In this document: piece after piece, positions 7,598 through 18,210 of the stretch
Position numbering within the stretch: position 1 is the stretch's first letter
Layout: every line of letters begins with the position of its first letter
NCBI RefSeq assembly: GCF_003123745.1
Contig: NZ_QETB01000004.1
Span: 186,001-250,000, forward strand
Source of the DNA: Ancrocorticia populi
GTDB lineage: Bacteria; Actinomycetota; Actinomycetes; Actinomycetales; Actinomycetaceae
Reading direction: 5' to 3'
DNA: 64,000 bases
Translations under genes and position numbers: made by a program
Notes under the pieces: model-generated
The model's input: the letters and a program-made list of their open reading frames with translations, nothing else
The model's database searches: none
Told to the model about the DNA's origin: nothing

Positions 7598-7672
7598 GGG
7601 CCTATAGCTCAACGGCAGAGCATCGGACTTTTAATCCGCTGGTTCTGGGTTCGAATCCCAGTGGGCCTACCA
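7598..7672 (+). tRNA. tRNA-Lys (anticodon TTT), site of element integration
   Basis: The cloverleaf reads: acceptor GGGCCTA pairing with TGGGCCT, D arm GCTC/GAGC, anticodon loop CTTTTAA (anticodon TTT), T arm CTGGG-TTCGAAT-CCCAG, encoded CCA. The 3' 46 bases are the attL core, so the functional gene is part host and part element. A second copy of these 46 bases at 18165-18210 is the displaced host 3' end. Confidence 0.96.
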
Positions 7673-8811
7673 TCCAAACCCGCTACATCTAGCGGATCCA
7701 CCACATCATCAAGATTCACTCGCTCAAGGCCGGTGCACTTTCGGTGCACATCAGCCCGAGCCGCTTCCATCTTCTCCGCCACCGAATCAAGGTCATCGTC
7801 AAACAGGTCCGCGTATATATCTAGCGTCATGGCGGCGCTCTTATGCCCAAGCATCCTCTGAACCGCTTTCACGTTCGCCCCGGCGCTCACCGCCAACGAT
7901 GCGGCCGTATGCCGAAGATCATGAGGCGTAATCCCAAGCTTGAGTTTCTTGACAGCATCATCAAAACAACGGCGACGGAAATTCCGTAACCTCAACGGCC
8001 CACCATTAGGCGAAGTGAACACAAGGTCATCGTCAGACTTCCCTTCCATATGGGTGGCAAGTTCATTAGCGATAGACCTCAGGATCGGGACTGTTCGGAT
8101 CTGGTGAGTCTTAGGTGTACCTGTCACGAGCCGCCCACTAATCTCAGTGGTTGACTCCGCGACCGTCAGGCGACACTTCTCAAGATCCACCCTGCCGACT
8201 CGCAACGCTGCAAGCTCCCCAAACCGTAGGCCGCAATATCCCAGCACGAGCACCACCAGCGCATCGGCCCCACACTGGCCCGCCAACCGCTCCAATTCCT
8301 CGCTAGACAGGTAGTGCTTCTCCCTCTCGCCCACACGAGGCAGCGCAACCCTCTTCGCCGGATTATGAGCAATCTTCCCAGCGAGCACCGCATCATCAAG
8401 CATCAACGACATAACCCGATGAGCTTGCCGAACCGTAGCGGGAGACAGACCAGACTCCGATAATCCACGCACCCACTCCCCCACATCCGCGAACATCACT
8501 TTATTCAACGGCACATTAGCCCAGGTGGGGAGAATCTGGACCTTGAGCAGGCCCTCATATCGTGCCCGAGTGGACGGCTTCAACTGCACTTGCGACTTCA
8601 CCCACGGATCAGCCCACTCGCCCAGTTTGATACGCCCACTAGCGGGATCCACATAGCTCCCAGTGTTCAAGCTGGCTTCTATAGATGTCCGGTACCTATC
8701 AGCGTCACTCTTCTTCTTGAACGACTTCGAACGCTGTTTAGCGTCAGGATCACGCCACCGCACAAGCCACGTGACCTTACCGTCACGGACCCGCTTACTT
8801 ACCTTCGCCAT
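7609..8811 (-). CDS. int: Tyrosine recombinase integrase
   Basis: Catalyses site-specific integration into tRNA-Lys. From the ATG at 8811 it is 400 aa; a longer in-frame GTG at 8829 is possible. Residues 1-60 are an Arm-binding-type N-terminal domain, 63-150 the SAM-like core-binding domain, and 165-345 the catalytic domain with Arg196, His297, Arg300, His323 and Tyr333. Residues 381-395 are encoded by the antisense of the attL core and residues 396-400 plus the stop by host tRNA sequence, so the end of the protein depends on integration. The start overlaps the upstream gene by 17 bases. Confidence 0.96.
   Translation of the reverse strand: MAKVSKRVRDGKVTWLVRWRDPDAKQRSKSFKKKSDADRYRTSIEASLNTGSYVDPASGRIKLGEWADPWVKSQVQLKPSTRARYEGLLKVQILPTWANVPLNKVMFADVGEWVRGLSESGLSPATVRQAHRVMSLMLDDAVLAGKIAHNPAKRVALPRVGEREKHYLSSEELERLAGQCGADALVVLVLGYCGLRFGELAALRVGRVDLEKCRLTVAESTTEISGRLVTGTPKTHQIRTVPILRSIANELATHMEGKSDDDLVFTSPNGGPLRLRNFRRRCFDDAVKKLKLGITPHDLRHTAASLAVSAGANVKAVQRMLGHKSAAMTLDIYADLFDDDLDSVAEKMEAARADVHRKCTGLERVNLDDVVDPLDVAGLDGRPTGIRTQNQRIKSPMLCR
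7627..7672 (+). repeat. attL core (46-bp direct repeat)
   Basis: The 46 bases from ACTTTTAATC to CCTACCA are identical to 18165-18210. They cover the anticodon loop to the CCA end of tRNA-Lys. The flanking bases differ on both sides, fixing the core length. Confidence 0.95.
7732..7749. promoter_or_regulatory. Putative integrase arm-type site (left)
   Basis: GGTGCACTT followed by TC and GGTGCAC gives two GGTGCAC words with an 11-base period. It lies 59 bases inside the attL core and within the integrase coding region. The same arrangement recurs at 18039-18056 on the other side of the joined core. Confidence 0.5.
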
Positions 8812-9313
8812 CAAGGAAACCCTTCTCACGCGCCTTACGGATCCAGCGCGTAGCCGTAGCGGGCGGAAGTTTCAGGGAAACCTGAACAAACCACGAGGGT
8901 GCTAAACCTATGGTGTTGGCCAACTTATATGAACGGGCAACCCGTTTGAGGGAATCAGGCACAGGCCCCATCGCCTTCAATAGGTCGAGATCTTCGGTGT
9001 CGAAATCTTGGAGGCGAACACCCAACTTTTCCTCTATATCTCCGGTCAACGCCATCAAGGGTATTGATGACGTCGGAATTAACCGGAGATCGGTCGAACT
9101 TATCTCTCCACCGTCCTGAGCACGGACCCTCACTGACGTCGTGCGAATAAGGTTCTTGTCGCCCACTAAATCTAACTCAGCCTCAAAATCTAAATCTCGA
9201 CCCTCTTCCACAACCGTGCCTATTACCGTGCACGGGACGTCAACTTCAATGCCTTCAATTACAGCAAAAGGCTTACTGCGTGAGTCCGTCCTCACCTCTT
9301 CGATGGTGTACAT
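8795..9313 (-). CDS. Hypothetical protein with C-terminal HTH-like segment; candidate element regulator
   Basis: A 172-aa soluble protein that I cannot name. The first 90 residues look beta-rich. The C terminus (about 135-170) reads like a helix-turn-helix: APSWFVQVSL, LPPATATRWIRKAREKGF. It is upstream of and overlaps int, and is divergent from the excisionase/replication operon. This is the place where a satellite's master repressor usually sits, so a regulatory role is plausible but unproven. No clear ribosome site precedes the ATG, so it may be leaderless. Confidence 0.7.
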   Translation of the reverse strand: MYTIEEVRTDSRSKPFAVIEGIEVDVPCTVIGTVVEEGRDLDFEAELDLVGDKNLIRTTSVRVRAQDGGEISSTDLRLIPTSSIPLMALTGDIEEKLGVRLQDFDTEDLDLLKAMGPVPDSLKRVARSYKLANTIGLAPSWFVQVSLKLPPATATRWIRKAREKGFLDGEGK

Positions 9314-9360
9314 GCCTCAACACTATGCCACTGATTGATTCCTGACAATCCTCGATCAGC

Positions 9361-9448
9361 GTGATTGCCTACGGTCATTGCGCAATCACCCTGAGGGAGT
9401 TATGCTGAACTCGATCATGGTGATTGTGGGTTGTCAGCACTCAATCAC
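9361..9448. promoter_or_regulatory. Two identical palindromic operators in the divergent control region
   Basis: GTGATTG-N15-CAATCAC occurs at 9361-9389 and again at 9420-9448, with the same 15-base spacer and different spacer sequence. A weaker GATTG/CAATC pair lies at about 9333-9350. The sites fill the gap between the leftward regulator/int genes and the rightward xis gene. This is the expected position for a switch operator. Confidence 0.65.
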
Positions 9449-9471
9449 TTGGGATGAAGAAGGGGAAAGTC

Positions 9472-9663
9472 ATGGCCACGAAAACAGAAACACAAACCAT
9501 TCTCACCACGGAAGGACTGGCCGAGCGATACCAAGTACCACTCGCCACCATCTACACGTGGAACAGCCAAGGCACAGGCCCCCGCCGAATCAAAATCGGC
9601 AAACACGTCCGCTACCGCATGGCCGACATCCTCGAATGGGAAGAAGGCAACCTTGAACGCTAA
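9472..9663 (+). CDS. Excisionase-like small HTH protein (AlpA/Xis type)
   Basis: A 63-aa protein from ATG 9472, with an AAGGGG site upstream. It is a single winged-helix of the MerR/excisionase class: TTEGLAERYQVPLATIYTWNSQG, then GPRRIKIGKHVRYRMADILEWE. Such proteins direct excision with the integrase or activate satellite genes. It is the first gene of the rightward operon, just after the tandem operators, and overlaps the next gene by 11 bases. Confidence 0.88.
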   Translation: MATKTETQTILTTEGLAERYQVPLATIYTWNSQGTGPRRIKIGKHVRYRMADILEWEEGNLER

Positions 9664-11365
9664 CCCCACAGACGGCCTCACCGCGTTTGAACGGGTACGA
9701 CGCGCAGTAGAGAATCAAGGCCTCAATATCAAACCCGAGCGGCGAGACTCATTCCTCTGCCAAGGCCCTGGGCACTCCGAATCTGACCTATCCGTTCACG
9801 TCACGGGCATAGCTGGGCAAACCCTTATCAAGTCATTCGCAGATGAGGAAGAACTCTTCCTTGACGCAATCGGCCTAGGGTGGGCAGACCTCTTCGACAA
9901 CCCGAAGCAAGGCAACCGGTACGAGTATTACGACATCGCCGGGGACCTTGCACGCACGGTCACACGCAGCCCGGCAAAACAGTTCAACCAAAAAGTACTC
10001 GACAAAGAGACAGTACCCCTCTACCGCCTTGATGAAGTACGCGAAGCCGTGAAGGCCGGTGCACCGATCTATGTGTGTGAAGGAGAGAAAGACGCTGACA
10101 CGCTCCGCACTCTCGGAGTCTGCGCCACCACCTCCCCGCAAGGCGCACAGTCATGGAACAAGGCCGACTACACTCCACTAGCTGATGCCGCCCAAGTCTT
10201 TGTTGTTGCCGACAACGACAAAGCCGGTATAGAACGCGCCAAAGGACTCACCCCGAAACTTGAACGGCTCTGCGCTGGACAAGTTGAAGCAGTCGCGCCC
10301 GCCGAAGGATTGAAAGACGCCGCCGATCACATCATGGCCGGGCACACACTCCAACAATTCGAACCGTTGAAACTATCTAGCCCACTCGATGGGATGTTCT
10401 CATCAGAATGGTTGTTCAAGCAGCAGTTCCCTCCTCTTGAGTACGCAGTGCCCGGAATCGTTCCCGAAGGCCTAGCCCTTCTCGCTGCCCCACCAAAGAT
10501 AGGGAAATCATGGATGGTGCTCGGACTCGCCAAGGCATGCTCCGAAGGCAACCATGCGTTTGGAGTAATCCCCGTGGATCGTCGCCCCGTCCTCTACATG
10601 GCACTAGAAGATGGACCGCGACGGCTACAAAACAGACTCGGATCCATTCGAGGCGCGGGAGACCCTAACCTGTTCTTCCTAACCGAACTCAAGTCAGACC
10701 TGCTCACCACACTAGACAGCTTCCTCAGGAAATACCGCAAGCCGTTAATCATTCTGGACACCCTAGGCAAAGTCCGCGACGTCTACAGCGGCAACGACGC
10801 CTACCAAAAAGACTACGCCCAGTTAGGCGTCATGAAAGAAATGATTGACCGCTACCCCGGGGCCTCAATGATAGTGGTGCACCATACCCGCAAGGGTGCC
10901 GCCGATGACTTCGTACAGGAAGTCTCAGGCACCCAAGGCCTAACCGGCGCAGTAGACACAATCCTCACGCTCCGCCGTGACCGCAACTCTGGCGATGCTC
11001 TTCTCAACGTCACCGCACGCGACGCGATGGAAGGACAGTACGCCCTCACAATGGGAGATAACGGAGTCTGGGAGCTGATCGGTGATGACCTCGAAGAGTC
11101 AGCCGAAGCAGCACGCAAGCACCATGAGACAAGCAATCTAGGTGATGGCAACGCAAAACTCATTCAGTACATCAACGATCATCCCGAAGGCGTGAAGCGC
11201 TCTGACGTTGCCACCTTCATGGGATGGAGCGATGAGACAGCCAGCACCAACCTCTCACGCCTCTATAAACGCGGCTCGATCAGCAAGAGCGGCCGAGGTG
11301 TCTACGTCCCAAACATAACAAACATAACAGACATAACACCTAACACAGAGAGGCAAGCGTCATGA
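9653..11365 (+). CDS. Replication protein: Toprim plus RecA-fold ATPase plus C-terminal winged helix
   Basis: A 570-aa protein. The start is TTG at 9653 (AAGAAGG about 7 bases upstream), overlapping xis. A Cys36/His41 remnant may derive from a primase zinc finger. The Toprim domain spans about 138-192 (CEGEKDADT, VVADNDKAG). The RepA/KaiC-like ATPase spans about 265-470, with Walker A APPKIGKSW at 279-287, Walker B LIILDT at 365-370 and a VVHHTRKG segment. A helical DNA-binding domain covers 495-555. The family serves in primase-helicase initiation of phage, plasmid and satellite replication. Its last residues form an NIT-NIT-DIT tripeptide repeat encoded by DNA iterons. Confidence 0.88.
   Translation: MNANPTDGLTAFERVRRAVENQGLNIKPERRDSFLCQGPGHSESDLSVHVTGIAGQTLIKSFADEEELFLDAIGLGWADLFDNPKQGNRYEYYDIAGDLARTVTRSPAKQFNQKVLDKETVPLYRLDEVREAVKAGAPIYVCEGEKDADTLRTLGVCATTSPQGAQSWNKADYTPLADAAQVFVVADNDKAGIERAKGLTPKLERLCAGQVEAVAPAEGLKDAADHIMAGHTLQQFEPLKLSSPLDGMFSSEWLFKQQFPPLEYAVPGIVPEGLALLAAPPKIGKSWMVLGLAKACSEGNHAFGVIPVDRRPVLYMALEDGPRRLQNRLGSIRGAGDPNLFFLTELKSDLLTTLDSFLRKYRKPLIILDTLGKVRDVYSGNDAYQKDYAQLGVMKEMIDRYPGASMIVVHHTRKGAADDFVQEVSGTQGLTGAVDTILTLRRDRNSGDALLNVTARDAMEGQYALTMGDNGVWELIGDDLEESAEAARKHHETSNLGDGNAKLIQYINDHPEGVKRSDVATFMGWSDETASTNLSRLYKRGSISKSGRGVYVPNITNITDITPNTERQAS
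11312..11338 (+). repeat. 9-bp iterons inside the 3' end of the replication gene
   Basis: AACATAACA, AACATAACA, GACATAACA lie in exact tandem, followed by a degenerate CCTAACACA. They encode Asn-Ile-Thr repeats. The reverse complement of this block resembles 17984-18010 near attR. Iterons of this kind are common as replication-initiator sites; that role is inferred. Confidence 0.6.
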
Positions 11366-11805
11366 GTCAGCTTCTGTCTTCGTGTCTGGTGTGTGGTGCT
11401 CCGTGTGAAGGCGTCAGGTGTCCCGAGCATCGGATCCCTGCTTCTGCCCGTCCTCCACGTCAACGAGACGACGCCTACCGGACCTATGCGTGGCACAAGC
11501 TCTCCAAGCGTGCAAGGAAACTCCAACCGTTCTGTAGTGATTGTGGAGCCACCGAGGACCTTCAATGCGATCACCTACCTATCGCGTGGGAACGCTACGA
11601 CAAGGGTTTGCCCGTGCGTTTACAGGATGTGGACGTGGTGTGCGGTGAATGTAATCGTGCTCGCGGTTCGGCACGTGGAGAACACATCACCCACCACATA
11701 CCTGGGGGGATAGGCGGAAAAGATTCTGCTGTTTCGCCCCCGTGGCAGGCAAAATCTCAATTACTTCAAGTTTCAACTACCTGTGTAAAGGAGGTGGATG
11801 ACTGA
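11362..11805 (+). CDS. HNH endonuclease
   Basis: A 147-aa protein coupled to the replication gene by an ATGA overlap. It has a zinc-finger-like CLVCGAPCEG...CPEH N terminus and an HNH core with paired cysteines: CSDCGA, LQCDHL, VVCGECNRARG. HNH proteins directly before the large terminase take part in cos-type DNA cleavage and packaging in HK97-like phages. Here the gene stands where HNH plus small terminase would normally be. Confidence 0.9.
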   Translation: MSQLLSSCLVCGAPCEGVRCPEHRIPASARPPRQRDDAYRTYAWHKLSKRARKLQPFCSDCGATEDLQCDHLPIAWERYDKGLPVRLQDVDVVCGECNRARGSARGEHITHHIPGGIGGKDSAVSPPWQAKSQLLQVSTTCVKEVDD

Positions 11806-13265
11806 TGGCTGGACCTAAAGCAGCTATCAAGGCGGATCCTCTCTCGTTTAAGGGTTGGCCGAGGGATCGGGCTAGGCGTCGGATCCGGTTTATCAAGGAA
11901 TATCTGGTTACGCCTCGTGGGCATGGTGCGGGTAAGCCGGTTAATTTGCGGGCGTTTCAGAAGGAGATCATTACCGGCGCGTTTGCTCCGGGGATCCGTA
12001 CGGCGCTTATCTCTATCCCAAGGGCAAACGGAAAAACTGCGATCGCTGCGATGCTGGGATTAGCTGAATTGTTTGTTGGACCCATGTCCGCTGAGGTGCT
12101 TGTGGTGGCCTCTGATCAACGTCAGGCCAATATCACGTTCAAGCTGGCGAAGCGCATGGTGGAGCTGAACCCGGAGCTGGCGGATCGTACCCATATTTTC
12201 AGTGACCGGATATATGTCCCGGAGACGGATAGCACGCTAGTCCCGTTACCTGCTGAATATGGGGCTTTGCAGGGCTATGATCCTTCGCTTTTGATCGTGG
12301 ACGAGCTTCATGTGGTTACTGAGGATGTGTGGAGTGCGGCTGTGACGGCAGCGGGTAAGCGTCCCGAGAGTTTAACCCTTGCGATTAGTACCCCGGCCGC
12401 TAGTGAAGATTCGCTGATGTGGCGGCTTGTGAAGCATGGCCGGGAGGATGAGGATGCCCAGTTCTATCTGCGTGAATGGGCCGCCCCCGAGGGCTGTGAG
12501 GTGACCGATAGGGATGCGTGGAGGATCGCGAACCCGGCTTTGGCGGATGAGGATCCGTTTCTGGCTGAGGATGCGATCGAGGCGGTGCGCAAGACGATCC
12601 GGGAACCGGTGTTCCGTCAGTTGCGGCTTGGACAGTGGGCGAAGGGTATTGACTCGTGGCTGCCGTTCGGTGCTTGGGAGGATCTGGCTGCCCCTGAGGT
12701 GGTTGTGGATCCGAAACAGAAAATTGTCCTTGGCTTTGATGGCTCCGCTAGTGGGGATTCGACGGCTCTGATTGGCTGCACGGTGGAAAAGCAACCTCAC
12801 GTGTTTGTGGCTGGGCTGTGGGAGAACCCGCACGATCCACGTTGGCGTGTACCCCGCCGTGAAGTGATCGACCAGATTCGCTACATGTTCAACCACTACA
12901 ACGTGGTGGAGCTGGCAGCGGACCCGTGGGGATGGCGTACCGAGCTGGAAGAACTCGCTCAAGAGTTTGGGGAGAAGCGCGTCCTGATGTGGAACACGGC
13001 TCAGGCTCAACGTATGGGACCGGCAACTGACCGGATGTATCAGGCCGTGGTGAATAAGGAGCTGACTCATGACGGCAATCAATCCATGGCGAACCACTTC
13101 TCTCATGCCGTAGCAAAGTCCTCCACGGTGGGGGATCTGATCACGAAGGACAAACGGAACTCGCCCCGCAAGATCGATGCGGCGGTGGCTGCGATCGTGG
13201 CGCTTGATCGGAGCGCGTTCCATAGCAAGAAGGCTGGCCGCAAAGTGGCTAGTTTCAAACGATAA
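11805..13265 (+). CDS. Phage terminase large subunit
   Basis: DNA-packaging motor of 486 aa. Walker A is SIPRANGKT (70-78), Walker B LLIVDELH (162-169), and the RNase-H-like nuclease begins at GFDGSASGDST (Asp312), with further acidic residues near ELAADPWGW and DAAVAAI. The start ATG overlaps the HNH stop by one base (TGATG) and has AAAGGAGGT upstream. It is of usual family length and appears intact. Confidence 0.95.
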   Translation: MAGPKAAIKADPLSFKGWPRDRARRRIRFIKEYLVTPRGHGAGKPVNLRAFQKEIITGAFAPGIRTALISIPRANGKTAIAAMLGLAELFVGPMSAEVLVVASDQRQANITFKLAKRMVELNPELADRTHIFSDRIYVPETDSTLVPLPAEYGALQGYDPSLLIVDELHVVTEDVWSAAVTAAGKRPESLTLAISTPAASEDSLMWRLVKHGREDEDAQFYLREWAAPEGCEVTDRDAWRIANPALADEDPFLAEDAIEAVRKTIREPVFRQLRLGQWAKGIDSWLPFGAWEDLAAPEVVVDPKQKIVLGFDGSASGDSTALIGCTVEKQPHVFVAGLWENPHDPRWRVPRREVIDQIRYMFNHYNVVELAADPWGWRTELEELAQEFGEKRVLMWNTAQAQRMGPATDRMYQAVVNKELTHDGNQSMANHFSHAVAKSSTVGDLITKDKRNSPRKIDAAVAAIVALDRSAFHSKKAGRKVASFKR

Positions 13266-13276
13266 GGAGAAACACG

Positions 13277-14566
13277 ATGTTGACGGAACTATTACAGAAA
13301 TTGGATGCCCCGGCTGGACGGTTCGCCCAGCTGGATAGGTATTATGCGGGACGCCAACCGATGGCGTTCCTTAGCCCTGAGTCGAGGGAGGATCTGGGCG
13401 ACCGCATGACCCGCATGGCGGTGAATATCCCGAGGCTTGCGGTCACGTCTTTGACGGAGCGGCTGCGCGTGATCGGCTTTAGCAAGGACGGTTCCCCGGC
13501 GTCTGAGGTGTGGGCTGATTGGATCGGTAACGACATGGACCAACTCTCTGTTGTGGCTCACCGTGAGGCGCTGACTTTGGGATCCTCGTATGTGATCGTG
13601 TGGGCTGATGAGGCCGGTAATCCTACCGTGTCCGTTGAGAGTGCCCGTCAGGTAGCGGTGGTCAGGGATCCGGGCACACGCCGTATCACGGCCGCTGTGA
13701 AACGCTGGGAGACCGATAAGACAACTGAGGCGGTGCTGTATGGCCCGGATGAGATTATCCATTACAGGGCGGACCATACGGGTGGCGTGACTGGCTCCCA
13801 GTTCCATGTGGCCGAGACGATCCCTAATCCGCTGGGCATGGTCCCGGTGGTGGCGCTCAGGAACTCGGATAGGTTGCTTGATGATGGCGTCTCGGAGATG
13901 GAGGATCTACTGCCTCTGGTGGACGCCCTGAACAAGGTGCTGGCCGACATGATGGTCAGCTCTGAGTATTACGCTAGGCCGCGCCGGTGGGCGACTGGGT
14001 TGGAGTTGGAAGAGGACGAAGAGGGTAACGCGATTAATCCGATCCCGAACTCGAACCGGGCGATGATTAGTGAGTCCCCGGATACGAAGTTCGGACAGTT
14101 GCCAGCGGCGGACCTCTCCTCTTATGAGTCGTCGGTGCGCGTGCTCACGTCCCAGATTATGGCGGTGTCTGGGTTGCCTTCCCACTATCTGCCCACGTTG
14201 ACCTCGAACCCGCCGAACGCGGATTCTATGCGCGCCGCCGAGGCCAGCTTGTCCGCGAGGGCGAGTGCCCGGTGTGCACAGTTCGGCCGGGCATGGGAGG
14301 ACGTGGCCCGGTTGATGGTGGCGATCCGTACCGGACAGGACCCCGAGAATGTGGATGTGCGTATCGAGTGGGCGGATACTACAACCCGCTCTGTCGCTCA
14401 AGAGGCCGACGCCACGGTGAAGCTGTATCAGGCTGGGCTTCTCCCGGCTAGTGAGGCTCTGGCGCGTCTGGGATATTCGGATGATGAGATCGAGGCTATC
14501 CGTACCGCGCGCCGGGCTGAGGCCCTTGATAACGCTGGCACTGACCTGCAAGGACTTCTCTCATGA
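13277..14566 (+). CDS. Phage portal protein
   Basis: A 429-aa SPP1 gp6-like portal, the dodecameric ring through which DNA enters the head. The start ATG follows AAGGAGAAACACG. Recognisable parts are the N-terminal YYAGRQP, the segment NIPRLAVTSLTERL, the conserved NPLGMVPVV and the helix-rich C terminus with LPSHYLPTLTSNPPNADSMRAAEASL. It lies 11 bases after the terminase and overlaps the next gene by ATGA. Confidence 0.93.
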   Translation: MLTELLQKLDAPAGRFAQLDRYYAGRQPMAFLSPESREDLGDRMTRMAVNIPRLAVTSLTERLRVIGFSKDGSPASEVWADWIGNDMDQLSVVAHREALTLGSSYVIVWADEAGNPTVSVESARQVAVVRDPGTRRITAAVKRWETDKTTEAVLYGPDEIIHYRADHTGGVTGSQFHVAETIPNPLGMVPVVALRNSDRLLDDGVSEMEDLLPLVDALNKVLADMMVSSEYYARPRRWATGLELEEDEEGNAINPIPNSNRAMISESPDTKFGQLPAADLSSYESSVRVLTSQIMAVSGLPSHYLPTLTSNPPNADSMRAAEASLSARASARCAQFGRAWEDVARLMVAIRTGQDPENVDVRIEWADTTTRSVAQEADATVKLYQAGLLPASEALARLGYSDDEIEAIRTARRAEALDNAGTDLQGLLS

Positions 14567-15156
14567 GCACCTATCAGGACACGGTTCAACGGCTCGGGAA
14601 GAGCACGGCAACGATCCTTGAACAGCTCTGGGAATCCGTGCAGCGCGGGGAACTGCCACAAGCAGACTTCGCCCAGATTGCCGCCCAGGTTGTGTATCTG
14701 GCGAACGAGCAGGGACGGGCTGCCGCACAGGCCGCTCTCAATGGCTATGTGGAGATCGCGACCGGGATCCCAACTGTCCCGGTGGCACAGTCTGCCACAG
14801 TAACCACGGCAGAGCTGGCACGGCTGGAGAAGGCTATCGGGACGATCCTCGCGGCCGATCAAGACACTCTCATGCAACTGGCCCGGCTGGGGAACTCGGA
14901 GCCGTTGGATAGTGCGGCACGGTCCTTCTCTGAGGGCATCAGAACCAACGGGAAAGTCAAAGGCTGGGTGCCCCAGTTGGAGCCGGGCGCGTGCGAACTC
15001 TGTCAATGGCTGTATGCCGATGGGCGGATCTGGCCCAAGGATTACCCGATGCAAACGCACAAGGGTTGCGGCTGTAGCCCACTACCAACCTTCGCGGACC
15101 GTGAGCTGTCGGTCCCGTATAGCAAATTCCTCAACAGAAATGGAGTAAAGCGATGA
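14563..15156 (+). CDS. MuF-like head morphogenesis protein (short)
   Basis: A 197-aa protein in the position of a portal-associated minor head protein. It is helical, with a small Cys-containing C-terminal core: ACELCQWLYADGRIW and THKGCGCSPLP, resembling the end of phage Mu gpF-like domains. It has no toxin domain. ATGA overlaps couple it to the portal before and the scaffold-like gene after. Confidence 0.8.
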   Translation: MSTYQDTVQRLGKSTATILEQLWESVQRGELPQADFAQIAAQVVYLANEQGRAAAQAALNGYVEIATGIPTVPVAQSATVTTAELARLEKAIGTILAADQDTLMQLARLGNSEPLDSAARSFSEGIRTNGKVKGWVPQLEPGACELCQWLYADGRIWPKDYPMQTHKGCGCSPLPTFADRELSVPYSKFLNRNGVKR

Positions 15157-15626
15157 CACAGGAAACCACAATCGAAGAACAGCAGGACGTCACTACTACG
15201 GACACCCTTGATGATTCCGTCAGTAATGCTGACGCAACCCCCGAGGCTGAGGTTAATGGGGTTGACCCCGAAAACGAGGGCACGCAGACGGATCCCCCCG
15301 AGCCGGATTCTTTTCCTCGTGAATATGTGGAGAAGCTACGTGATGAGAACGCCAAATACAGGCGGCGGGCTGGACAGTCTGACGTGCTTGCACAGCGGCT
15401 CCACACGGCCCTCACAGCGGCCACAGGACGGCTCCAGGACCCCACAGACCTGCCATACGACGCGGCCCACCTCGACGATCCCGAGGCCCTTGAACAGGCG
15501 ATCGATGATCTCCTCAAGGCCAAACCACATTTAGGTGCACGCCGCCCCACAGGCAGCATCGGGCAAGGACAAACCTCCACCACAAACATGGTGGATCTGG
15601 CCGGTATCCTCCGCGCCAACGCATAG
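15153..15626 (+). CDS. Scaffold-like capsid assembly protein
   Basis: A 157-aa acidic protein. An unstructured Thr/Asp/Glu/Pro-rich N terminus (1-50) is followed by a short helix (REYVEKLRDENAKYRRRA), an Ala-rich helix and a polar tail. Its composition, and its place between the portal/MuF genes and the capsid, match phage scaffolding proteins. The call rests on composition and context, not on a conserved motif. Confidence 0.75.
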   Translation: MTQETTIEEQQDVTTTDTLDDSVSNADATPEAEVNGVDPENEGTQTDPPEPDSFPREYVEKLRDENAKYRRRAGQSDVLAQRLHTALTAATGRLQDPTDLPYDAAHLDDPEALEQAIDDLLKAKPHLGARRPTGSIGQGQTSTTNMVDLAGILRANA

Positions 15627-15640
15627 AAAGAGAGAAGAAA

Positions 15641-15808
15641 ATGGCAAAGTACATCCTCAATAAAGACCGCACCAACAAGATCCAAGCAACAATCGAGGCC
15701 GACAACTACCGTCTCGACAGTGGTTACTTCACGTTCTTCAAGGACAGTGAGCAGGTCTACACGATCAAGGCCGAAGCAGTGTCAACCATTGTTCGGGATG
15801 ATTCCTGA
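15641..15808 (+). CDS. Small phage protein, 55 aa
   Basis: Begins ATG 15641 (MAKYILNKDRTNK) after AGAGAGAAGAAA, and ends TGA 15806-15808 overlapping the next ATG (TGATG). It is predicted beta-rich (SGYFTFFKDSEQVYTIKAEAV). Function is unknown. Position suggests a small structural or capsid-accessory protein. The coupling on both sides makes it a real gene despite its size. Confidence 0.72.
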   Translation: MAKYILNKDRTNKIQATIEADNYRLDSGYFTFFKDSEQVYTIKAEAVSTIVRDDS

Positions 15809-16149
15809 TGCCACATTATCGAGGCGAGACCGTGACCCTGCATATCAGGGTGGACACGGGCAGAAAAACTTCCAGTAATGACCCCATCTACCGGAATGAG
15901 GACGTGGACCGGCCCAATTGTATGGTGGCACCTCGTGTTAAACCCGAAGCGTTCGACTATAACAGCGTGACTTATGTGCATGGCTTCGACGTGTACGACA
16001 CCTACGACTGCCCCATCACCGCATCGGACAAGGTGACCATTCGCGGCGTCAAGTACAACGTGGATGGGGAAATCTCCCGATGGGCTAACCCCTATGACGG
16101 ACAGAAAAAGGGCTGCCACTATGCGGTGAAAACCGCTGGATACAACTAG
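15808..16149 (+). CDS. Small phage structural-type protein, 113 aa
   Basis: A beta-rich 113-aa protein with several Tyr/Asp pairs (NSVTYVHGFDVYDTYDCPI, DKVTIRGVKYNVDGEI). The pattern is like small head-completion or stopper proteins, but I cannot assign a family. It precedes the capsid gene, whereas head-completion genes usually follow it. Coupled by TGATG to the 55-aa gene. Confidence 0.7.
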   Translation: MPHYRGETVTLHIRVDTGRKTSSNDPIYRNEDVDRPNCMVAPRVKPEAFDYNSVTYVHGFDVYDTYDCPITASDKVTIRGVKYNVDGEISRWANPYDGQKKGCHYAVKTAGYN

Positions 16150-16154
16150 GACAG

Positions 16155-16210
16155 ATACCCCCTAGGGGTATATACTGGGAGGGAGTTGGCCGGGTGCTGG
16201 CTCCCTTCCC
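16155..16210 (+). promoter_or_regulatory. Two hairpins before the capsid gene
   Basis: ATACCCC-CTA-GGGGTAT (16155-16171) is a perfect 7-bp inverted repeat. It is followed by GGGAGGGAG (16177-16185) pairing with CTCCCTTCCC (16201-16210), with one bulge. They lie in the 125-base gap before the major capsid gene. They may terminate or process the upstream transcript, or stabilise a separate capsid message. Confidence 0.5.
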
Positions 16211-16274
16211 GTTGTCCGGGCGACTAGAGGAAACCAAAGACGAAAACTCTTCTAGTTTGAATAGGACAATAATC

Positions 16275-17129
16275 ATGGTAGAAACCACCCAAGACAACAA
16301 GGAACTACTCGCCGAGCAGGTCAGCTCCCTTCTCGTAGAACCACTGGAAGCCGAGAGCGTCGTGCTCGCGGCTGGCCCCCGTATTTTCGACACCGCCTCC
16401 CCGTTGCGGATCCCCAAGCTCGTAGGCTCTAGTGAGCCGGGCTGGATCGGTGAAGGCGAACTGATCCCCGAGCACGATGTCCAGTTCGATGAAGTCAAGC
16501 TGATGCCCACCGACCGTAAGAGTGTTAAGACTCTGATCAGGTTCACCAACGAGCTTCTGCGCCAATCCACTATTGGGATTGATGCGACCCTGAAGGCCCG
16601 CCTTGTCAACGATGTGGCACGCAAGCTCGATGATGCTTTCCTGACAGGTGACGGCACAGGCGGATCCGTAACCGGCATCATCAACCAGCCCGGTGTACAG
16701 CACGGGATCCTCGACGCGGCCGAGCCAGACAGTTTCCTCGACGCGATCGCGCTCGCCTCTGCCGCCGAGGTCACCCCCAACCGGTGGTTCATCTCCGGTG
16801 AGGACTTCATCAACGTCCGCAAGATCAAGGACAACAACGGCAAATACATCCTAGAGTCGGATATTACCTCTGGGACCACGTACCGCCTGTTCGGGATCCC
16901 CGTCACCGCCACCAACAAGCTCACAGCTGGGACCGCTGTCCTTGCCAACATGGCCGAAGTCGCCGTTGCCCGCGATACCAACCCGACCGTGAAGATCCTT
17001 GACCAGCGGTACGCCGAATACGACGAACAGGCAATCCGAGTCACCGCCCGCTACGACCTGGGCCTACTCCGCCCCGAAGGCGTTGTTGTTCTCGGAGCCG
17101 GTAGCGAGCCGGACCCGGCGGGAAAATGA
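16275..17129 (+). CDS. Major capsid protein (HK97 fold)
   Basis: A 284-aa protein from ATG 16275; a longer frame from 16194 has no support. It lacks the long N-terminal delta domain, which fits the separate scaffold-like gene upstream. Capsid signatures are VVLAAGPRIFDT, IPKLVGSSEPGWIGEGELIPEHDVQFDEVKL, the RFTNELLRQS spine-type helix, FLTGDGTGG and the C-terminal VTARYDLGLLRPEGVVVL. No prohead protease gene is visible. Confidence 0.93.
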   Translation: MVETTQDNKELLAEQVSSLLVEPLEAESVVLAAGPRIFDTASPLRIPKLVGSSEPGWIGEGELIPEHDVQFDEVKLMPTDRKSVKTLIRFTNELLRQSTIGIDATLKARLVNDVARKLDDAFLTGDGTGGSVTGIINQPGVQHGILDAAEPDSFLDAIALASAAEVTPNRWFISGEDFINVRKIKDNNGKYILESDITSGTTYRLFGIPVTATNKLTAGTAVLANMAEVAVARDTNPTVKILDQRYAEYDEQAIRVTARYDLGLLRPEGVVVLGAGSEPDPAGK

Positions 17130-17167
17130 CCAGCCGGTACACCCGGCGCTACTAAGGCGGTGAACCA

Positions 17168-17488
17168 ATGGTCACAGGTGAAGATATTGCCGCGTTCATG
17201 GGACGATCTGACGACGCTGAAACAATCGCTTTAGCAGACCAGTCCCTCCCCATCATCACTGCTATGGCACGCGCATATACGCGCGGTCAAGGCTTTCAGG
17301 ACGGGGAACCAAACGAGGAGCTAGCAGCAGTCATTACGACCGCCACCGCCCGCCTCGTAGCCAACCCAACCCAACTACAATACAAACAATCTACAGGCCC
17401 CTTCTCCGAGTCCTTCCAAACCTCTTTCAAAGGCTGGATCCTCGCAGAAACCTTCATCCTCAACAGGTACAGGAAACGCGCCTTGTAG
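17168..17488 (+). CDS. Head-tail connector protein (gp6-like adaptor)
   Basis: A 106-aa helical protein: ITAMARAYTRGQGF, LAAVITTATARLVANPTQLQ, SFKGWILAETFILNRYR. This is the pattern of HK97 gp6-like connectors that seat on the portal. It is the last clear structural gene of the element. No stopper, tail-tube or tape-measure gene follows, so a mature head would need tails from elsewhere. Confidence 0.85.
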   Translation: MVTGEDIAAFMGRSDDAETIALADQSLPIITAMARAYTRGQGFQDGEPNEELAAVITTATARLVANPTQLQYKQSTGPFSESFQTSFKGWILAETFILNRYRKRAL

Positions 17489-17498
17489 ACCATAGACC

Positions 17499-17591
17499 GG
17501 TGGGCGGACGTGGTTCGCCGTCGTCAGCCGGACGCCGCCCACCTACCCACGAAGGGCACTCTCTTTCATTGCCTTTAGAGAGTGCCCTTCG
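17499..17591 (+). terminator. Two tandem hairpins after the head operon
   Basis: GGTGGGCGG (17499-17507) pairs with CCGCCCACC (17535-17543). Then CGAAGGGCACTCTCT (17550-17564) pairs perfectly over 15 bases with AGAGAGTGCCCTTCG (17577-17591). No T-run follows, so this may be a weak terminator or RNA-stability element rather than a classical intrinsic terminator. Confidence 0.55.
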
Positions 17592-17593
17592 GC

Positions 17594-17785
17594 ATGTCTA
17601 CGCGGGCAATCGCGCGAGAGGTAGGGGTTAGCGACAATACAGTCCGGACAGTCCGCGATGAACTCGAATCGACTTCCCAAATTAGGAAGTTGGACAAGAC
17701 AGTCGGCGCAGACGGGAAAGAACGCCCTGCGAATCGTCCTGCCCCTGAGCCGAAGCCATACAGCGAGGTTCTATCACAGGTGTGA
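17594..17785 (+). CDS. Small HTH protein or fragment
   Basis: A 63-aa frame from ATG 17594, with an in-frame GTG at 17582. The text STRAIAREVGVSDNTVRTVRDELEST is a clean helix-turn-helix, followed by VGADGKERPANRPAP. The latter resembles the phrase after the HTH in ParB-like phage proteins, so this looks like the C-terminal half of a longer protein. The start has no ribosome site and overlaps a 15-bp hairpin. It may be a remnant or a hairpin-controlled small regulator. Confidence 0.45.
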   Translation: MSTRAIAREVGVSDNTVRTVRDELESTSQIRKLDKTVGADGKERPANRPAPEPKPYSEVLSQV

Positions 17786-17983
17786 TACTTTGCGCGATCC
17801 CGCAAAATTAACTTTGGCACTGCCGCCATAGTTTTCGGTGACGCCAACGAAAAGGGTTCTTCTGCGATCACCGAAAAACTCTACCGGCGCGGGTAATGTT
17901 CTCAGGGCATCGACTGAGGAGGGAGTGGATAGTATCCCCGCCCCTTGAACATCGTTGCTTTGAACATGACACCCGTCAGAAGG

Positions 17984-18010
17984 TGTTATGTCTGTTATTA
18001 GTGTTATGTT
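17984..18010 (-). repeat. Second 9-bp iteron block near attR
   Basis: TGTTATGTC, TGTTATTAG, TGTTATGTT are in tandem at a 9-base period. On the opposite strand they read (A/G)ACATAACA, matching the iterons at 11312-11338. The middle unit is degenerate. Confidence 0.55.
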
Positions 18011-18038
18011 TACACGACTGTCAGGATCCGCTTCTCAC

Positions 18039-18056
18039 GGTGCACTTCTGGTGCAC
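18039..18056. promoter_or_regulatory. Putative integrase arm-type site (right)
   Basis: GGTGCACTT, CT, GGTGCAC: the same 18-base layout as 7732-7749 with two swapped bases. It lies 108 bases from the attR core. Confidence 0.5.
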
Positions 18057-18164
18057 AGGAGGTCGAGAATAGGTCCGAATTGACGCGAAACAACAAGAGC
18101 AATAAGTGTTGATATTACGCCCCAAACAGCCCAAACCCTAGTCGCCATCTACCGGACGGATATA

Positions 18165-18210
18165 ACTTTTAATCCGCTGGTTCTGGGTTCGAATCCCAGT
18201 GGGCCTACCA
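18165..18210 (+). repeat. attR core (46-bp direct repeat)
   Basis: Identical to 7627-7672. It contains only the 3' half of tRNA-Lys and therefore is not a functional tRNA gene. It marks the right border of the element. Confidence 0.95.

Follow-up and report, generated by a model that had tools for sequence, protein, structure and literature searches.

Satellite switches are known in detail from the staphylococcal islands, and products of the helper phage commonly switch satellites. In SaPIbov1 the stl, str and xis promoters are overlain by three inverted-repeat Stl sites, two of them in the stl-str region and one in the str-xis region, each with 6-bp arms, a 5-bp spacer and a pitch of one helical turn (PMC4936726). 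The operators of gp33 in the mycobacteriophage BPs are built of 12-bp palindromic half-sites with a variable spacer and are found in five regions (PMC4557955). Actinobacterial satellites have a dedicated study in that on the Streptomyces satellites (PMC10690885), and in the extracts of the literature on actinobacterial satellites that were searched, no switch of the build presented below was found described.

The locus compared here belongs to Ancrocorticia populi and lies in a 64-kb window, by which is meant the whole stretch of 64,000 nucleotides that was analysed. It is part of an element (7627-18210) bounded by 46-bp copies of a tRNA-Lys 3' end, with the following features in window coordinates:

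7609-8829, minus strand: tyrosine integrase gene (int), overlapping the end of reg
7627-7672, plus strand: att copy, the 3' end of tRNA-Lys(ttt)
8795-9313, minus strand: reg, which comes first in the leftward operon, encoding a 172-aa regulator and putative binder of the sites, with a C-terminal HTH by family comparison
9320-9348, minus strand: proposed reg-int promoter, TTGTCA-N17-TAGTGT, read by eye, from which transcription would begin at the reg start codon (9313) or close to it
9331-9359, minus strand: site 1, CTGATCG-N15-CAATCAG, within which lies TTGTCA, the -35 proposed for the leftward promoter
9361-9389, no strand assigned: site 2, GTGATTG-N15-CAATCAC, exact
9378-9407, plus strand: proposed, weak xis-primase promoter, TTGCGC-N18-TATGCT, read by eye
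9412-9418, minus strand: orphan half-site, CGATCAT, with a 1-bp gap to the left arm of site 3
9420-9448, no strand assigned: site 3, GTGATTG-N15-CAATCAC, exact, with the xis start codon 23 bp downstream
9472-9663, plus strand: xis, encoding an excisionase-like HTH_17/AlpA-like protein
9653-11365, plus strand: Toprim/AAA_25 primase-helicase gene
11362-17488, plus strand: HNH, large terminase, portal, VG15-like, scaffold-like, head closure, capsid and adaptor genes
18165-18210, plus strand: second att copy, identical at 46/46 positions

Judged from its gene content, the element is predicted to be a satellite that is integrated at tRNA-Lys and encodes a capsid, with no recognised tail genes. It carries the traits of a capsid-forming PICI, namely its own capsid (Phage_capsid, 1.2e-38), portal (SPP1_portal, 2.9e-43), connectors (head closure Hc1, 8.5e-9; adaptor Ad1, 0.0029), large terminase (TerL_ATPase, 5.1e-19; phrog_9, 1.4e-95), HNH endonuclease (phrog_144, 4.2e-7) and an att site. 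A small terminase had no match among the element proteins scanned, and the sole protease match, of the VG15-like protein to phrog_1522 (E 0.0012), is weak. Neither tail nor lysis genes were recognised; between the end of the adaptor gene (17488) and 18210, the only ORF with a match is one of 67 aa (17582-17785), located past the adaptor near the right end of the element and showing weak matches to several HTH families.

Searches with the primase returned no relative among genome contigs and, among viral contigs, the window's own element only. The genome with the best primase relative (G169) showed primase and integrase matches, and no match to reg or xis within 19 kb. The genome of the window has a second primase-like locus (L080; G000:C1:815000-834000), in which a primase-helicase with 34% identity stands beside an integrase relative and neither reg nor xis has a match; it is another integrative element. 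The satellite also contains a 31-nt inverted repeat (90%) built of iteron-like ACATAACA units, with one arm (11311-11341) where the primase gene ends and the other (17981-18011) near the right end of the element; these repeats are possible replication origin or initiator sites. Replication-origin iterons were also considered for the switch sites and rejected, as these sites are inverted pairs and the two ACATAACA positions are the better iteron candidates.

The intergenic region between the leftward reg-int operon and the rightward xis-primase operon contains, as the first-pass annotation had reported, two exact copies of GTGATTG-N15-CAATCAC with 15-base spacers (9361-9389 and 9420-9448), and a genome-wide pattern search located this exact sequence at those two sites only in the 2,651,737-base genome. 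The array is larger than the two sites then counted: it has a third member, site 1 at 9331-9359, as well as the orphan half-site at 9412-9418. Site 1 shows three mismatches to GTGATTG-N15-CAATCAC and one to TGATTG-N6-GWC-N6-CAATCA, and the consensus of the three sites is.TGAT.G......GTCA.....CAATCA. (with site 1 taken from the minus strand). The spacers had been called unrelated, which is wrong in part, since GTCA is common to all three at one offset and they thus have a common centre. The 59 bases given as the spacing apply to sites 2 and 3 alone, counted from start to start, while sites 1 and 2 abut with a gap of 1 bp; the orphan CGATCAT is followed by site 3 after the same gap, in the same layout as the right half of site 1 and site 2. 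In each of the three sites the 7-bp arms flank a 15-bp spacer and start 22 bp apart, or about two helical turns, which would place both arms on one face of the DNA.

The repeated junction of a right half with the next left half admits another reading, in which the true unit is the 15-bp palindrome CGATCANNGTGATTG (9353-9367 and 9412-9426) and the 29-bp frame a by-product. The two copies of CGATCANNGTGATTG are 59 bp apart and 13/15 identical, and a 12-bp palindrome forms half of the bipartite operator of the BPs repressor (PMC4557955). We nevertheless consider this reading quite unlikely: the CGATCANNGTGATTG unit has no place for the left arm at 9331 or for the right arms, both exact, at 9383 and 9442, whereas the 29-bp frame fits sites 2 and 3 at all 15 defined bases and site 1 at 14, and reg relatives too have palindromes of 25-29 bp upstream.

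A lone palindrome with 7-bp arms is unremarkable by itself in this region, some such inverted repeat with a spacer of 6-25 bp being present in 902 of 5000 dinucleotide shuffles of 9314-9471. The duplicated palindrome is real and beyond chance: two non-overlapping palindromes with identical arm and spacer appeared in 0/5000 of these shuffles, and nowhere else in the 64-kb window is a palindrome of the same arm and spacer duplicated within 150 bp. When up to two mismatches to TGATTG-N6-GWC-N6-CAATCA were allowed, nine places were found genome-wide, of which the three switch sites alone have at most one mismatch and the other six have two. With only three genomic places at this stringency, all of them in the element, an element-encoded binder is favoured, and a host regulon was rejected. 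It is in our view distinctly improbable that the sites are instead bound by a helper-phage or host protein, for example an inducer sensing the helper; switching by helper products is common among satellites (cf. SaPIbov1, PMC4936726), but the same three places make a host regulon unlikely, and in viral contigs, where 11 stretches have a single GWC-centred site, the doubled site was confined to the window's own element, and so was reg among the fetched stretches.

Two proteins of the element had been put forward as the binder, the 172-aa protein and the excisionase-like one, and they do not fare equally. The 172-aa protein appears the better candidate, given its C-terminal HTH, the same xis/reg-int module around its homologues and the enrichment of their upstream regions in palindromes of this size, and the excisionase-like protein the poorer. 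An arrangement in which xis, with its HTH_17/AlpA-like product, binds the sites and regulates the switch in the manner of phage 186 Apl, the 172-aa protein having another role, would agree with the position of the xis gene directly downstream of site 3 and with Apl combining the roles of excisionase and of regulator between divergent early promoters (PMC7498355). We regard it as improbable, as Apl and similar proteins use direct repeats one turn apart (PMC7498355), the arrangement of excisionase (RDF) sites, while the GTGATTG arms are inverted and 22 bp apart, and as the att flanks lack GTGATTG and carry instead direct pairs of GGTGCAC at an 11-bp step. The latter pairs (7732-7749 and 18039-18056) have the same orientation, lie inward of the two att copies by approximately 60 and 110 bp (30-nt repeat at 80%), and are candidate integrase arm or excisionase sites. 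Integrase arm sites were rejected as an identity for the switch sites on the same absence of the GTGATTG motif from the att flanks.

The reg family, to which we return as the preferred source of the binder, is small. By its own sequence the window's 172-aa protein matches no family, and relatives were found in 2 of 213 genomes of the taxonomic family and in 6 of 396 of the order, own genome included in both cases. A five-member reg profile reached 30/396 genomes at 1e-5 and, at stricter thresholds, 1/47 (1e-15), 2/149 (1e-15) and 7/345 (1e-12), these counts including genomes already known. No relative was returned by the genome-contig search with the 172-aa protein, no match by the phage search with this protein or the reg proteins of two other loci (L014 and L018), and none by the plasmid search with L014 reg; in viral contigs, L014 reg and L018 reg found nothing and the window's reg found its own element only. 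The best five reg proteins are alignable over their whole length, and all five aligned members (5/5) have a divergent excisionase-like gene on one side and an integrase gene downstream of reg. Among 25 loci inspected by tblastn, both neighbours were present at 12, the integrase only at 7, the excisionase only at 2 and neither at 4, the excisionase-like gene of L033 having been assigned by eye. This set excludes L021, L022 and L024-L026, which are duplicates or additional hits from genomes that the set already contains, and the profile-search loci L035, L037, L040, L041, L043-L046 and L049-L052 lie outside it.

The HTH-like stretch of the 172-aa protein occupies residues of about 108-168, towards the C-terminus. 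The final 65 or so residues of 12 members matched HTH_23 in 8, DUF6214 in 7 and Sigma70_r4_2 in 5 cases (E up to 1), with a best HTH_23 match of E 7.8e-5; the corresponding piece of the window's own protein matches none of these three. Comparison with the PDB pointed weakly to DeoR and SorC-type HTH chains (E 0.02 to 0.4), an AlphaFold single-sequence model was unusable (mean pLDDT 41), and a literature search for DUF6214 found no paper.

Palindromes of 25-29 bp with perfect 7-bp arms, a length range that was picked after the sites had been seen, are located upstream of reg at 5 of the 24 other loci of the whole 25-locus set, against 0.9 expected from shuffles (P 0.0016), or at 6/25 when the window is counted (P 0.0003); 19 of the 24 have none. 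Neighbouring control segments contain such a palindrome in 15/240 cases, which is above the shuffle prediction; this control comparison, like that of 12-mers below, was made on the window plus 9 of these 24 loci, with L033 added after its palindromes were seen. L018 possesses a 29-bp palindrome whose arms differ but in which TTGTCAGGA takes the offset, and the orientation relative to reg, that it has in site 1, L014 one of 27 bp upstream of reg, and L033 two palindromes with the same core arms. The switch region of L033 (about 1096-1204, reg on the plus strand) contains GTTGCGTA-N11-TACGCAAC together with a second near-copy and a further half-site, and is, as a putative assignment, an independent duplicated operator with other arms; scanned against viral contigs, this pattern occurred in 5 contigs, and over these and the 11 with the GWC-centred site reg was present in the window's own element only. 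The recognition helices of L019 and L033 differ at one residue of nine, and these loci have in common a 12-mer containing the L033 arm (shuffle p 0.005, uncorrected for 45 pairs). Half-site and recognition-helix similarity showed no overall correlation (Mantel p 0.27), and the idea that the half-site tracks the helix was rejected as a general rule, being true of the closest pairs only.

We favour, as a reading with a reasonable probability of being correct, that the 172-aa reg is the master repressor of the satellite and has the three 29-bp palindromes as its operators, acting on them as a dimer over both promoters and relieved by the helper; most likely the palindromes hold the island's own repressor, which keeps the island dormant. 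A reg homodimer, with its C-terminal HTH domains far apart, would contact the paired arms around the central G-W-C. Site 1 covers the proposed -35 of the reg-int promoter, through which reg would limit its own synthesis, and side-by-side binding at the abutting sites 1 and 2 may be possible. At the xis-primase promoter, site 2 would overlie the proposed -35 and site 3 would lie just downstream, so that the excision and replication genes are proposed to be off while reg is present. A consensus promoter scan accepted neither promoter, and both therefore remain proposals. The integrase, made together with reg, would keep the element integrated, and a helper-phage product acting on reg, or the loss of reg, would release the rightward operon. 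The dimeric regulator at a satellite switch that had been suggested earlier finds good support in this anatomy of inverted arms, a divergent intergenic region and a tRNA-integrated element with capsid genes; that core idea is sound, while the number of sites was underestimated and the spacers were misjudged.

Only tentatively can the reading be extended to the whole family, that is, to an actinobacterial regulator family without described function, with a C-terminal HTH, in an operon with int and with some members touching DUF6214, which might control satellites and other integrative elements through arms spaced two turns apart around the -35, the half-site following the recognition helix and the N-terminal domain serving as receptor of the helper signal. 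If right, the locus offers a repressor candidate with its operators, a concrete place to seek the inducing signal of the helper, and a small repressor family with readable half-sites.

Compared with known systems, the element has the integrase, excisionase, primase, HNH, large terminase, portal, capsid and connectors, without recognised tail genes, of the capsid-forming PICIs (PMC10690885); it differs from those described in that study in that a small terminase was not recognised, the protease match is weak and the regulator belongs to a family without described function. With phage 186 Apl it has in common a small HTH excisionase next to a divergent switch, but one-turn direct repeats are seen here at att and not at the switch (PMC7498355). 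As in SaPIbov1, whose Stl sites work through arm symmetry (PMC4936726), as the present ones would, three inverted-repeat sites are located at the switch; they would overlie the repressor and xis-operon promoters if these are where they were proposed by eye. All three sites nevertheless depart from the Stl type of 6-bp arms and 5-bp spacer, having 7-bp arms, a 15-bp spacer and a pitch of two turns and lying in one intergenic region; in addition, the HTH is N-terminal in Stl and C-terminal in reg, and reg is in one operon with int. Like gp33 of BPs, the presumed repressor is divergent from an early operon in an actinobacterial host and would have several bipartite operators with a spacer, but the BPs att lies inside the repressor gene (PMC4557955), while here it lies beyond int (att at 7627-7672 and 18165-18210, reg at 8795-9313). 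The proposed logic is that of Stl and BPs, but the element falls outside both definitions; it is an arrangement of a familiar kind, in which the unusually wide palindromes, their arm spacing and a probable repressor from a family without described function stand out.
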